64,000 nt of DNA, taken from assembly GCF_016132545.1 (NCBI RefSeq), contig NZ_CP066167.1, positions 771,001 through 835,000 on the forward strand. The letters run 5' to 3'. The translations under genes were made by a program, and so were the position numbers. Source of the DNA: Spongiibacter nanhainus. Lineage in GTDB: Bacteria; Pseudomonadota; Gammaproteobacteria; Pseudomonadales; Spongiibacteraceae. A model generated the notes under the pieces. It was not told where the DNA came from and searched no databases. It saw nothing but the letters and a program-made list of their open reading frames with translations. Every line of letters begins with the position of its first letter. Within the stretch, counting starts at the first letter, position 1. Positions 26,175 through 29,460 of the stretch are shown one piece after another.

Positions 26175-26238
26175 GCTGTGGGTCCCGAAAGTGAAGGGTC
26201 GTTATTGTAGCGGCTGCAGGGGAGGCGTGCGAGAACTG

Positions 26239-26910
26239 CTAGATGTTGAGCTTGCGGCGCATTTCCCGCATGCGCTCCTTTTGTTGTTCGGGGCTCAGTG
26301 GCTTGGCAGCGGCTTTGGGCAGTGCAGGGGCTTCCGGAGGGGGGAGAGTTTCGCCCCGGCGAACCCGTTCACAGAGTTGCTCGTAATTGCGCCGGAATAC
26401 CGGGTAGGCCTGCTGCTCCGCGGTGCTGGCTAGAAAAAACCAGTCGCTATCCCGGCCGGCGTGGTAAACGGCGGGGTGGGACCAGTGGTATTCGGCTTTG
26501 GGGCTGGGCGCGCGGCAGGCTTCCAGATACGCACTGTGGCTGTCGGGCAGGCCCAGCTCCCGGTCGTCCGGCTCACAGAATTTCAGTATGCCTTTGATAG
26601 TGGGCAAAAACTCGGACTCGCGGATAGCCCGGTGGCAGGCGCTGGTAATGCGCTGGGGAGGGATATGGCAAAGGTTGCTAAACCAGAGTTTTTTGGCGTA
26701 ACCGAGCTTTTCCTCGGTGGGAAAGGCTTTGTTGTACTGGTTGTGGTAGACCAGCTCAAATTCGGCAAACATCTGGTTGATGGCATCGACCACCGCTTCG
26801 CGGTCGGGCAGAGGCTGTTCAGAGGCCTTCTGCCCAGCTGCGGTCGGTGTGTTTTTCGATGAAGCCAGTTGCTTGTTGGCCTGGTCCAGTAGCGTGTTGC
26901 TGTCGCGCAT
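26239..26910 (-). CDS. Lambda P-like replication protein (possible helicase loader)
   Basis: A 223-aa protein resembling phage lambda P-type replication proteins. The recognisable core runs from about residue 45 to 115: VDAINQMFAEFELVYHNQYN, then KLGYAKKLWFSNL, IPPQRITSACHRAI, and FLPTIKGILKFC. In lambda, P recruits the host replicative helicase to the initiator. A Pro/Ala-rich linker and a basic C-terminal tail (QQKERMREMRRKLNI) follow. The gene overlaps the upstream DnaT-like gene by 92 bp in another frame, so the two are surely coexpressed. No other phage genes are near. The specific function is inferred. Confidence 0.7.
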   Translation of the reverse strand: MRDSNTLLDQANKQLASSKNTPTAAGQKASEQPLPDREAVVDAINQMFAEFELVYHNQYNKAFPTEEKLGYAKKLWFSNLCHIPPQRITSACHRAIRESEFLPTIKGILKFCEPDDRELGLPDSHSAYLEACRAPSPKAEYHWSHPAVYHAGRDSDWFFLASTAEQQAYPVFRRNYEQLCERVRRGETLPPPEAPALPKAAAKPLSPEQQKERMREMRRKLNI

Positions 26911-27973
26911 TGCCGCTTCCCATTTGGTGGCTGTGGGCCCACCGGTATTTTACATGTTGTAGAAACTTTGTATTCCAAGAGCGCTGTGCCTGGCCGCTGT
27001 CCCGCCAATACAGAATGAATTCGGGAATCTGCGCACGAGCAAAATCGGCGTCGATGCAAGCCATGCGCAGAATATCAAATACCGCCTCGCTGGGTTGCCA
27101 GTCGGCCCGCATAGGCGTGAATTCCTGCTCTTCGCCTACGGTATTGCGATAGCGCGCCCACTGCAATCGAATATGTTGGATAAAGCGGGAGTTCCAGTTG
27201 TTATCGACGGTACCCCGTTCCTGCCAGTAGAGAATGAATTCGGGAATGGCGTCCTCGATAAAATGCTGAGTCACACCGTCGCGAAGCAGAATTTCCAAGG
27301 CGTCGGCGCTGGGCCGCCAGCTGGAGGCGAGGCTCTGCTGCTTGGCCTGTTCAACTTGCTGGTATTGATGGCGTTTCCAGCGTCGGCTGACATATTGTGA
27401 AAAGGTACTGCTCCAGGAGCTGCGGGCCTCGCCAGTCTCCCGGTAGTGGGCGATAAACTCTGATAATGACGCCTCGATAAAGCTGGGTTCAATACCATTA
27501 AAGCGGGTCAGGTAGTCCACCGCAGCGCTGTCGGGCCGCCAGTCGGCGGGAATCATTTGCTGGCCGGGGACTGGGCTGCGGGGCGGGCGAGTTGTCGGCC
27601 CTTTAGAGACTGTGCCTTGACTGGCGGATGTTGGCGTGGGCTGCTGCGACGACGCGGAGGAGTGATCGTCGGCGCGGCGAAGCGCCAGGCGGATATTCTG
27701 GGCGTTGTCCAGCAGTGCGCCACCGAGCACTATCAGGCCCTGATCTGCCAGAGTTCGCAGCGTCGATTCGATTTGCGAGCGATCCCAGAACGGCAGTTGG
27801 GTTTCCAGGCGCGATTTGTCGATCACCTGCCAGTTGAGCCCGTCGCGGTGATGGCTGTCCAGTAGAGGCAGCCAGTCACTGAGTAGCTGGTATAGTAGAG
27901 CCGCCTCCAGGCCGAGGGTGGCGGCGAGCGTTGGAGAAACCAGCAGGGGGCGTTCCAAAAGGGGATCGGGCAT
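26819..27973 (-). CDS. Triple DnaT-like domain protein with N-terminal winged-helix-like region
   Basis: A 384-aa protein from ATG 27973; an earlier in-frame start at 28006 is possible. Residues 1-85 look like the winged-helix of DnaT/phage O-type replication proteins (LEAALLYQLLSDWLPLL, SRLETQLPFWDRSQIESTL, ADQGLIVLGG). A low-complexity Ser/Thr/Pro linker follows. Then come three copies of a DnaT-like module (about 142-203, 219-277, 291-348). Each has the pattern W-x-P...A...L...F(I/A)...EFI-x-(H/Y)...W...F-x-Q(Y/H)V-like...W. DnaT normally has one such module and acts in primosome restart. Divergent from radA. Confidence 0.72.
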   Translation of the reverse strand: MPDPLLERPLLVSPTLAATLGLEAALLYQLLSDWLPLLDSHHRDGLNWQVIDKSRLETQLPFWDRSQIESTLRTLADQGLIVLGGALLDNAQNIRLALRRADDHSSASSQQPTPTSASQGTVSKGPTTRPPRSPVPGQQMIPADWRPDSAAVDYLTRFNGIEPSFIEASLSEFIAHYRETGEARSSWSSTFSQYVSRRWKRHQYQQVEQAKQQSLASSWRPSADALEILLRDGVTQHFIEDAIPEFILYWQERGTVDNNWNSRFIQHIRLQWARYRNTVGEEQEFTPMRADWQPSEAVFDILRMACIDADFARAQIPEFILYWRDSGQAQRSWNTKFLQHVKYRWAHSHQMGSGNARQQHATGPGQQATGFIEKHTDRSWAEGL

Positions 27974-28013
27974 AAACAACCTGAACACGATGTGATAAGT
28001 CGGCATTGTAAGG

Positions 28014-28067
28014 TGTCGTCGCGAGCCCTGTCAGCCCTATGTTGCGACGACATTTGTGGTGACGACA
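28014..28067. repeat. Inverted and direct GACGACA repeats between the DnaT-like gene and radA
   Basis: TGTCGTCGC (28014-28022) is the exact reverse complement of GCGACGACA (28044-28052), and a further GACGACA lies at 28061-28067, 15 bp from the previous one. All are in the 122-bp divergent gap. The arrangement looks like an operator with three half-sites that could serve either or both genes. No known regulator is assigned. Confidence 0.6.
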
Positions 28068-28095
28068 TTAGCGGTAATTAGGCAGTAGAGACGGT

Positions 28096-29460
28096 ATGGC
28101 AAAAAACAAAATCGCGTATGTGTGCAGCGACTGTGGTTCTGACCACAGCAAGTGGCAGGGGCAGTGTCAGGACTGTGGTGCCTGGAATACGCTGGCGGAA
28201 ATCAAATTGGGGCCGGCGCGGCCGGGTGGTGCTGTGCAAGCCAAGGCAGGCTATGCCGGTGCCGCTGGCGGCGATGTGCAAAGCCTGTCCAGTGTAAAAA
28301 CCGAACACCTGCCCCGTATCAGCAGTGGCTTTGAGGAGTTTGATCGGGTGCTGGGGGGCGGCCTGGTCCCCGGTTCGGCGGTGCTGCTGGGTGGCCACCC
28401 GGGAGCGGGTAAAAGTACCTTGCTGCTACAAGTGCTGTGCCGGTTGGCGGCAAGCCAGGGCTGTTTATACGTCACTGGCGAAGAATCCCTCCAGCAGGTG
28501 GCAATGCGGGCCCAGCGGCTGGGCCTGGTGGCGGACGATCTGCAACTCTACTCGGAGACCAGTCTGGAACATATCCTTACTCAGGCGGCCCGTCACGCGC
28601 CCCGGGTATTGGTAGTGGACTCGATCCAGGTGCTGCACAGCGAGCAGGTGAGCTCGGCGCCGGGCAGTGTGTCTCAGGTTCGGGAATGCGCCGCGGCGCT
28701 GACCCGCTTCGCCAAGCAGAGCGGTACCGTGCTGATTATGGTGGGCCATGTCACTAAAGATGGCAGCCTAGCGGGCCCCAAGGTGCTGGAGCACATCATC
28801 GATTGTTCGATGATGATCGAGGGCGATAGCGACAGCCGTTATCGCACCCTCCGCGGCCACAAGAATCGTTTTGGCGCGGTCAATGAGCTGGGCGTCTTTG
28901 CCATGACCGAGCAGGGTCTCAAAGAAGTGAAAAACCCCTCGGCGATTTTCCTCAATCGCGGCGAGCAGGTAGCCGCGGGCAGTGCGGTAATGGTGGTCTG
29001 GGAGGGGACTCGACCGCTGCTGGTGGAGATTCAAGCCCTAGTGGACGACTCCGGCTATGGCAATCCACGGCGGGTGGCAGTGGGGCTGGAACAGAACCGC
29101 TTGGCGATGCTATTGGCAGTGCTGCACCGCCACGGCGGCCTGCAATTGGGCGATCAGGACGTATTTGTGAATGTGGTCGGGGGCGTGAAGGTATTGGAAA
29201 CCGGGGCCGATTTGGCGCTGCTGTTCGCCATCGTGTCCAGCTTTCGCGATCAGGCCCTGCCCGAAGAGTTGGTGGTGTTTGGCGAGGTGGGGCTGTCCGG
29301 CGAGATCAGGCCTGTCCCCAGCGGGCAGGAGCGATTGCAGGAGGCCCGCAAGCACGGTTTTCGTCGGGCCATCGTGCCCAAAGGCAACGCCCCCCGGGGC
29401 GATGCCGGTATGGAGGTGGTGGCCGTCAATTCCCTGGCAGAGGCGCTGGAGGCGATATAA
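28096..29460 (+). CDS. radA: DNA repair protein RadA
   Basis: RecA-like helicase that promotes branch migration in recombination. The protein is 454 aa. An N-terminal C4 zinc finger (Cys10, Cys13, Cys24, Cys27) precedes the ATPase with Walker A GGHPGAGKST (99-108). The RadA-specific KNRFG motif is in GHKNRFGAVNELG, and the C-terminal third is the inactive Lon-like domain. A hairpin (AGCGCC/GGCGCT, 29460-29478) overlaps the stop but lacks a T-run. Confidence 0.97.
   Translation: MAKNKIAYVCSDCGSDHSKWQGQCQDCGAWNTLAEIKLGPARPGGAVQAKAGYAGAAGGDVQSLSSVKTEHLPRISSGFEEFDRVLGGGLVPGSAVLLGGHPGAGKSTLLLQVLCRLAASQGCLYVTGEESLQQVAMRAQRLGLVADDLQLYSETSLEHILTQAARHAPRVLVVDSIQVLHSEQVSSAPGSVSQVRECAAALTRFAKQSGTVLIMVGHVTKDGSLAGPKVLEHIIDCSMMIEGDSDSRYRTLRGHKNRFGAVNELGVFAMTEQGLKEVKNPSAIFLNRGEQVAAGSAVMVVWEGTRPLLVEIQALVDDSGYGNPRRVAVGLEQNRLAMLLAVLHRHGGLQLGDQDVFVNVVGGVKVLETGADLALLFAIVSSFRDQALPEELVVFGEVGLSGEIRPVPSGQERLQEARKHGFRRAIVPKGNAPRGDAGMEVVAVNSLAEALEAI

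Follow-up and report, generated by a model that had tools for sequence, protein, structure and literature searches.

Which proteins help the replicative helicase onto DNA in Spongiibacter nanhainus, and what part might be played by two overlapping genes that resemble the replication genes O and P of phage lambda? The genes lie on the minus strand of the window, the whole stretch of 64,000 nucleotides analysed here, which is located at 771-835 kb of a genome consisting of a single contig of 4.08 Mb. The most probable answer, to which a probability of about 0.8 is assigned, is that they form a resident (domesticated) lambda O/P-type module of the DopC/DopE kind, which stands in for DciA in loading DnaB.

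Domains and predicted folds of the two gene products

The DopE-like gene P (26239..26910, minus strand) encodes a putative lambda P-type helicase loader of 223 aa. Its product lies well over the curated cut-off of the Pfam family Phage_lambda_P (PF06992; E 1.9e-13, 51 bits vs a cut-off of 26) and is matched by PHROG 109, 'P-like helicase loader' (E 1.3e-27, 98.3 bits), as expected from the lambda P likeness that had been proposed in an earlier note on this DNA. A profile built from P relatives also finds the lambda P chain 8v9t by sequence (E 8.4e-11). In the AlphaFold model (mean pLDDT 82.7, pTM 0.54), the top four Foldseek matches among solved structures are all lambda P chains of DnaB-P complexes, two of them at E <= 0.001 (best 9oa1, 1.5e-4, probability 1.00). 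The TM values of the two best matches (0.38-0.47) indicate that the domains agree with lambda P, while the overall shape does not. By sequence profile and predicted fold, P is a relative of lambda P. Its closest named relatives among the matches listed belong to Zhongshania, Spongiibacter and Neomelitea, the best ten showing 70-75% identity. PF06992 alone reaches only 32 of the 145 genomes of the order, and the other three genomes of the same genus fall below its cut-off and need the protein as query. The NCBIfam search returned no family for P or D.

The DopC-like gene D (26819..27973, minus strand, 384 aa) is predicted to encode a winged helix, three DnaT domains and a C-terminal tail. The ATG at 27973 was taken as its start, with a second in-frame ATG at 28006; the chosen start fits the alignment of relatives, whose own starts were picked by a script as nearest to it. 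The Pfam DnaT family (PF17948) matches D in three stretches (E 3.2e-73, 241.8 bits), which bears out the three tandem DnaT-like modules described earlier. Module 1 (residues 144-203; 27365..27544, minus strand), delimited with an own profile, is by module identities the least conserved; module 2 (27140..27337, minus strand) corresponds to the PF17948 match at C1:798140-798337, and module 3 (residues 286-351; 26921..27118, minus strand) to that at C1:797921-798118 (E 3.6e-28). Among the PHROG families, D is matched by 2509 and 11233, 'replication initiation protein', and by 6493, 'DnaD-like helicase loader'.

The AlphaFold model of D (pLDDT 80.6, pTM 0.39), in which the relative placing of the domains is not predicted, begins with a winged-helix-like domain, which a linker of low confidence connects to three helical modules; the end, again of low confidence, contains a short helix. 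The winged-helix domain (about residues 14-98; 27680..27934, minus strand), also covered by PHROG 6493 and 11233, had been suspected from the sequence of the N-terminus and is now seen in the predicted fold. Its best solved matches in Foldseek are 4pql, 4pt7 ('Structure of initiator') and 5kbj ('Structure of Rep-DNA complex'), with a probability of 1.00 and E of 0.014-0.12 over the first five rows, and the named viral structural matches include replication proteins and helix-turn-helix proteins. The predicted likeness of D to initiators is thus structural, and weak in E-value. Phage_rep_O (PF04492) is absent both from the Pfam matches of D and from the families listed for the 35 aligned rows. 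D shares with lambda O an N-terminal winged helix (in the model only), the position of its gene directly before P and a C-terminal acidic-Trp tail. Inspection of 26200-28100 gave no iteron array in or around the D gene; the repeats present there are six direct-repeat families of 12-29 nt, in two or three copies each, some of which are module codons. A defence gene was also considered and rejected, PADLOC giving D only E 0.028 and 0.054, and P nothing.

Occurrence of the pair, of DciA and of neighbouring genes

The earlier note had named dciA, dnaC and dnaT as genes to be sought in the rest of the genome. DciA (PF05258) has no match in the whole 4.08 Mb. The DnaC/DnaI/IstB family (PF01695) gives three matches, all weak. 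The best (27 bits) falls within a frame of 495 aa, at contig bases 586-891, and is probably dnaA, because it lies at a usual contig place of that gene. The DnaT family (PF17948) likewise gives three matches, as many as D has modules; the two places listed are those of modules 2 and 3, so that no further DnaT domain is left.

At the level of the order, the P protein of the window finds a match in 91 of the 145 genomes. Two of these, G060 with a prophage-type P and G053 (E 2.6e-5), both with DciA, were left out of the resident count, and the remaining 89 are the same as all the genomes with a DnaT match. DciA is matched in 45 genomes. The resident pair and DciA occur together in none of the 145, and 11 have neither. 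The Fisher p of 2e-27 for this exclusion is overstated, since the genomes are kin; the exclusion is clustered by kinship, and the effective sample amounts to a few events. Among the 11 genomes with neither, six are less than 90% complete and four belong to families f35 and f43, other members of which have DciA at or near threshold. The last, G088, is 96% complete and shows no P, DnaT or DciA match, while three other sampled members of its family (f14) carry the pair; it may represent an assembly gap or a further loader. PF01695 matches 144 of the 145 genomes, with transposition proteins and loaders unsorted, and in some pair-bearing genomes the matches are strong (E to 1e-83).

In the class as a whole (274 genomes), DciA is matched in 221 and the P profile in 16, the window genome included; eight of the 15 other P-profile genomes were fetched. 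Three of these, all outside the order (G147, G189 and G318), have beside P a D with two or three DnaT modules and an acidic-Trp tail, and no DciA match. G246 and G304 show a P-like frame with neither a DnaT nor a DciA match. DciA is present in G227, G232 and G410, the last of which (locus L407) has a weak DnaT match and the tail DTSW. The locus of G318 (L402, C1:186416-194982) lies in a single-contig genome of 1.19 Mb and encodes a D with two DnaT modules and the tail NDKEW next to a P matched by the P profile at E 1.2e-52; the system thus occurs in a small genome too.

The genes tested around the pair are TatA, HisE, HisI, UbiB, UbiJ (below its cut-off) and UbiE on one side, and RadA, a PBP1A-family protein and PilM on the other. 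None of the nine is a phage gene, in agreement with the earlier description of a locus next to radA with no phage genes around. Across the order, radA is found in the fetched stretch of 48 of the 89 pair genomes, some stretches ending at contig ends, and in 0 of the 25 single-module genomes. The linkage of the pair with radA, proposed as a check, is clade-specific. As a partner of the pair radA was rejected, being divergent in the window and found in the stretch in only those 48 genomes.

Two other explanations have to be weighed against a resident loader module. According to one, the pair would act only in replication restart, as a PriA/PriB/DnaT-like primosome at stalled forks, with initiation at oriC left to something else. 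The DnaT protein of E. coli is a restart primosome protein, its DnaT domain is common to D, and radA, near which many relatives of the pair lie (48/89), is a repair gene. However, radA is missing from the stretches of all 25 single-module genomes, the tail and winged helix of D are of the O type and not of the DnaT type, and no other loader family is clearly found in the genome, so that a restart-only role leaves oriC without a known loader; this explanation is considered unlikely. Next to no weight is given to the other, a phage relic or cryptic prophage genes without a cell function, for which it can be said that P and D both come from phage-type genes and that prophage-like extra P matches occur in the same order (G128, for instance, has 10 P matches). 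The pair is nevertheless present in all four searched genomes of the genus and in 89/145 of the order, with overlap, tail and host neighbours conserved, and only one of 88 D genes is broken (G116). In G064 and G096 there are stops within the stretch that P matches; these are taken to lie upstream of the true start. A prophage relic is rejected on the grounds of conservation, and the strain-specific presence that the earlier note had held up as the alternative is not what is found. The reading of the pair as a resident module standing in for DciA is the one followed below.

The C-terminal tail and the gene overlap

D ends in the peptide TDRSWAEGL (26822..26848, minus strand), which follows a low-confidence and probably disordered linker. 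Across 35 aligned orthologues, D377, S379, W380 and A381 are invariant, while the linker before them is variable. The motif [DN]x[SDN]W is found at the tail of 85 out of 87 resident relatives, whatever their module number (one to four), the exceptions being DRGW and YQW. It also occurs in 78 of 79 named loci taken from the best 80 of 499 relatives. In three loci (L064, L066 and L172, the last from Dasania), D has been reduced to about 200 aa, a length that leaves no space for a winged helix beside its two diverged DnaT modules; these genes no longer overlap with P, yet D keeps the tail TDTSW.

The C-terminal end of lambda O, LTNTDWIYGVDL, closes with TNTDWIYGVDL (LTNTDW near the end) and resembles the tail of D; the last five residues of lambda O, those needed, lie just past NTDWI and outside the NTDW motif. 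The end of E. coli DnaT, unlike that of D, carries no DxSW tail. A sequence search of solved structures with lambda O gave no match. Viral contigs were inspected at 82 P-like loci, among them two found with the P of the prophage-type relative L151; a scan with lambda P itself yielded 80 copies at 97-100% identity, which were left out of the counts. In 63 of the 82 an upstream frame lay within the script limits; only 4 of these 63 genes have the strict motif [DNE]x[SDN]W, and 24 have a Trp among their last 14 residues. A tail rule common to all phage O-P pairs is not supported by these counts; the upstream genes without a tail may be P partners of another kind. For D, the sequence evidence suggests that the tail is perhaps a DopE-docking peptide, gripping DopE-DnaB.

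As the earlier note had stated, the two minus-strand reading frames share 92 nt in different frames (26819..26910), which encode the D tail in one frame and the N-terminus of P in the other. With P starts chosen by a script, 80 of the 87 relatives show an overlap of 25 nt or more, the median being 89. Judged by this recurrence among relatives, the D/P overlap is not a chance arrangement. The D codons for DRSW are read in the P frame as T-x-A-G, within PTAAG (26833..26847, minus strand), and 78 of the 80 relatives with an overlap of at least 25 nt have the corresponding pattern [TI]x[AVTP]G among the first 60 residues of P.

Selection in this stretch might in principle act on the P-frame T-x-A-G and not on the D tail. 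This is regarded as highly improbable, even though alignment A3 shows hardly any variation at T23 and G26 of P. The seven relatives with an overlap below 25 nt all keep the D tail [DN]x[SDN]W, whereas the P pattern is present in only one; among them G103 has an uncertain P start, the rest spanning four families without it, and the single P match (IAAG, in G141) is probably away from the aligned place. Furthermore, G108 and G112, the only relatives with the overlap in which the P pattern is lacking, are also the two that have no strict D tail, and lambda O bears the tail although the O/P overlap is 4 nt. Because low-overlap D proteins keep the tail in 7/7 while 6/7 of their P proteins are without the motif, what selection preserves in the overlap is probably the tail of D, with the P motif as its shadow.

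Module number and origin of the pair

The number of DnaT modules was determined in 87 resident D proteins, i.e. the 89 residents minus G116 (D split by a stop) and G120 (D on another contig), with no prophage-type rows. In G116 (locus L081), a single TGA lies between modules 2 and 3; it is the only broken D among 88 and may be a sequencing error. Three modules are present in 58 proteins, one in 25, two in 2 and four in 2. The single-module proteins are either long (268-336 aa stop to stop; families f6, f26 and f37) or short (144-181 aa stop to stop, too short for a winged helix; f2, f8 and f34). D lay within the fetched piece in 79 of the 80 named loci, and these have three modules in 66 cases, four in 10 (eight Microbulbifer, one Marinibactrum and one Cellvibrionaceae bin) and two in 3, Dasania among them. 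The triple module, which the earlier note had presented as an oddity, is indeed present here, but by these sequence counts three modules are the rule in one clade.

A module tree was built from one or two genomes for each combination of family and architecture. It unites the second modules of three-module proteins in one group (95) and places the third modules together with the last module of four-module proteins (99); with 63 columns, 59 of 90 inner branches are unresolved and the first modules are scattered. Mean identity within a position is 0.56 for the second module, 0.54 for the third and 0.38 for the first, against 0.32-0.37 between positions. On this comparison the modules are orthologous by position; the triplication is thus an old event, after which each position came under a constraint of its own, module 1 being the least constrained.

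The P tree (86 rows) contains three resident groups: multi-module (94/90), short single-module (100/99) and long single-module (100/97). A first version took P pieces of at least 160 aa, viral P sequences scoring more than 110 bits over more than 140 residues (39 of them) and, for three-module proteins, a single row from each family together with the window; for the final version 15 further rows were dropped (long branches, duplicates, lambda P, L320 and two incomplete). By the AU test, a common clade of all residents is compatible with the data (p 0.378), and the pair may have been captured once or more than once. In a quick tree, the P-like protein of L320, a contig of a viral collection, falls inside the resident multi-module clade; the contig may be a piece of host DNA misplaced among viruses, or else a phage with a DopE-type loader. 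Besides the resident pair, genomes of family f34 contain further P-type matches (nine more in G128; loci L123 and L130 and the prophage-type loci L151 and L152), which point to phages whose loader is apparently of the same type as that of their host.

Two prophage-type relatives from the same order bear on the ancestry of D. In L152, Phage_rep_O (9.5e-21) and DnaT (7.3e-21) are joined in one protein directly before the P gene, and L151 has HTH_36 and DnaT; both loci are taken as prophages because of their multiple copies. The earlier view of a multi-module DnaT beside P holds as far as the three DnaT domains are concerned. The label of a lambda-O-type protein that carries DnaT domains nevertheless suits D better than that of a multiplied DnaT, because L152 fuses phage-O and DnaT beside P and because the tail of D is lambda-O-like.

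Proposed role and comparison with known systems

In the proposed mechanism, DopE (P) would act on DnaB like lambda P, binding the ring and opening it. DopC (D) would provide a platform that holds origin or fork DNA through its winged helix and its three DnaT domains, the latter sitting on single strands. The flexible tail, kept from a lambda-O-like ancestor, would then grip DopE, so that DnaB is delivered to the DNA bound by DopC. The analysis itself establishes the homology, the domain architecture, the exclusion of DciA within the sampled order, the conservation of the tail and the overlap; helicase loading, binding of DNA, contact of the tail with DopE and a role at oriC are inferred. A broader scenario is put forward tentatively and considered possible, though rather doubtful: the lambda O-to-P handover would have been domesticated whole, with the DxSW tail as a general DopE-DnaB docking site. 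The DnaT arms would have been tripled after capture in one clade, and made fourfold in Microbulbifer and others, one DopC at a DnaA-opened origin thereby corresponding to several iteron-bound O dimers at ori-lambda, while the overlap would tie tail and loader together.

Brezellec, in 2017, is said to have given the names dopC and dopE to a domesticated pair derived from lambda O and lambda P, respectively, which reportedly occurs in bacteria without dciA and dnaC/dnaI. Likewise, the resident pair is found here where dciA is missing, both in the genome itself and in the order. The pair is very probably this published DopC/DopE system, as judged from the title under which the work is cited in reference lists, 'Domestication of Lambda phage genes...' (Genome Biol Evol, Brezellec et al., doi 10.1093/gbe/evx111), and from one passage elsewhere, which places DopE beside DciA as a loader family (PMC13326638). 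The earlier proposal of a captured, domesticated loader therefore stands with regard to conservation, the lack of relic features and the missing DciA match, and not with regard to novelty; the system is already known, and only details may be new, namely the three DnaT modules and the lambda-O-like tail. The literature searched gave no experiment on DopC or DopE; no title or abstract start on the domain number or tail of DopC was found, in searches that did not name the tail.

The pair agrees with lambda O/P in gene order, in the fold of P and in the C-terminal NTDW (here DRSW), and lambda O has a winged-helix DNA-binding domain, as D does. It differs in that lambda O has no DnaT match in Pfam, compared with three in D, and in that the lambda O gene carries annotated iterons, while the D gene has no iteron array; the 4-nt overlap of lambda compares with 92 nt here, where the pair is chromosomal and conserved. 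E. coli DnaT has the DnaT domain (PF17948, 3.7e-21) and, like D, is encoded beside a loader gene (dnaT-dnaC); it has one module and no DxSW tail, in contrast to the three modules and the tail of D. The E. coli loader DnaC is described in a passage of PMC6391071 as an AAA+ protein, unrelated in sequence to lambda P. DciA (PF05258) has the same presumed job of helping the replicative helicase onto DNA, but forms a separate Pfam family and is never found with the resident pair in the 145 genomes. A passage of PMC5109545 reports that on depletion of DciA new rounds from oriC stop and running forks finish.

The present genome sample backs the claim that some bacteria replicate their chromosome with captured lambda-type genes. 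It reduces the cooperation of DopC and DopE to small questions, concerning one tail peptide and a defined number of DNA-binding modules, for which natural DopC variants with one, two, three and four modules exist. The same tail question arises for lambda O itself.
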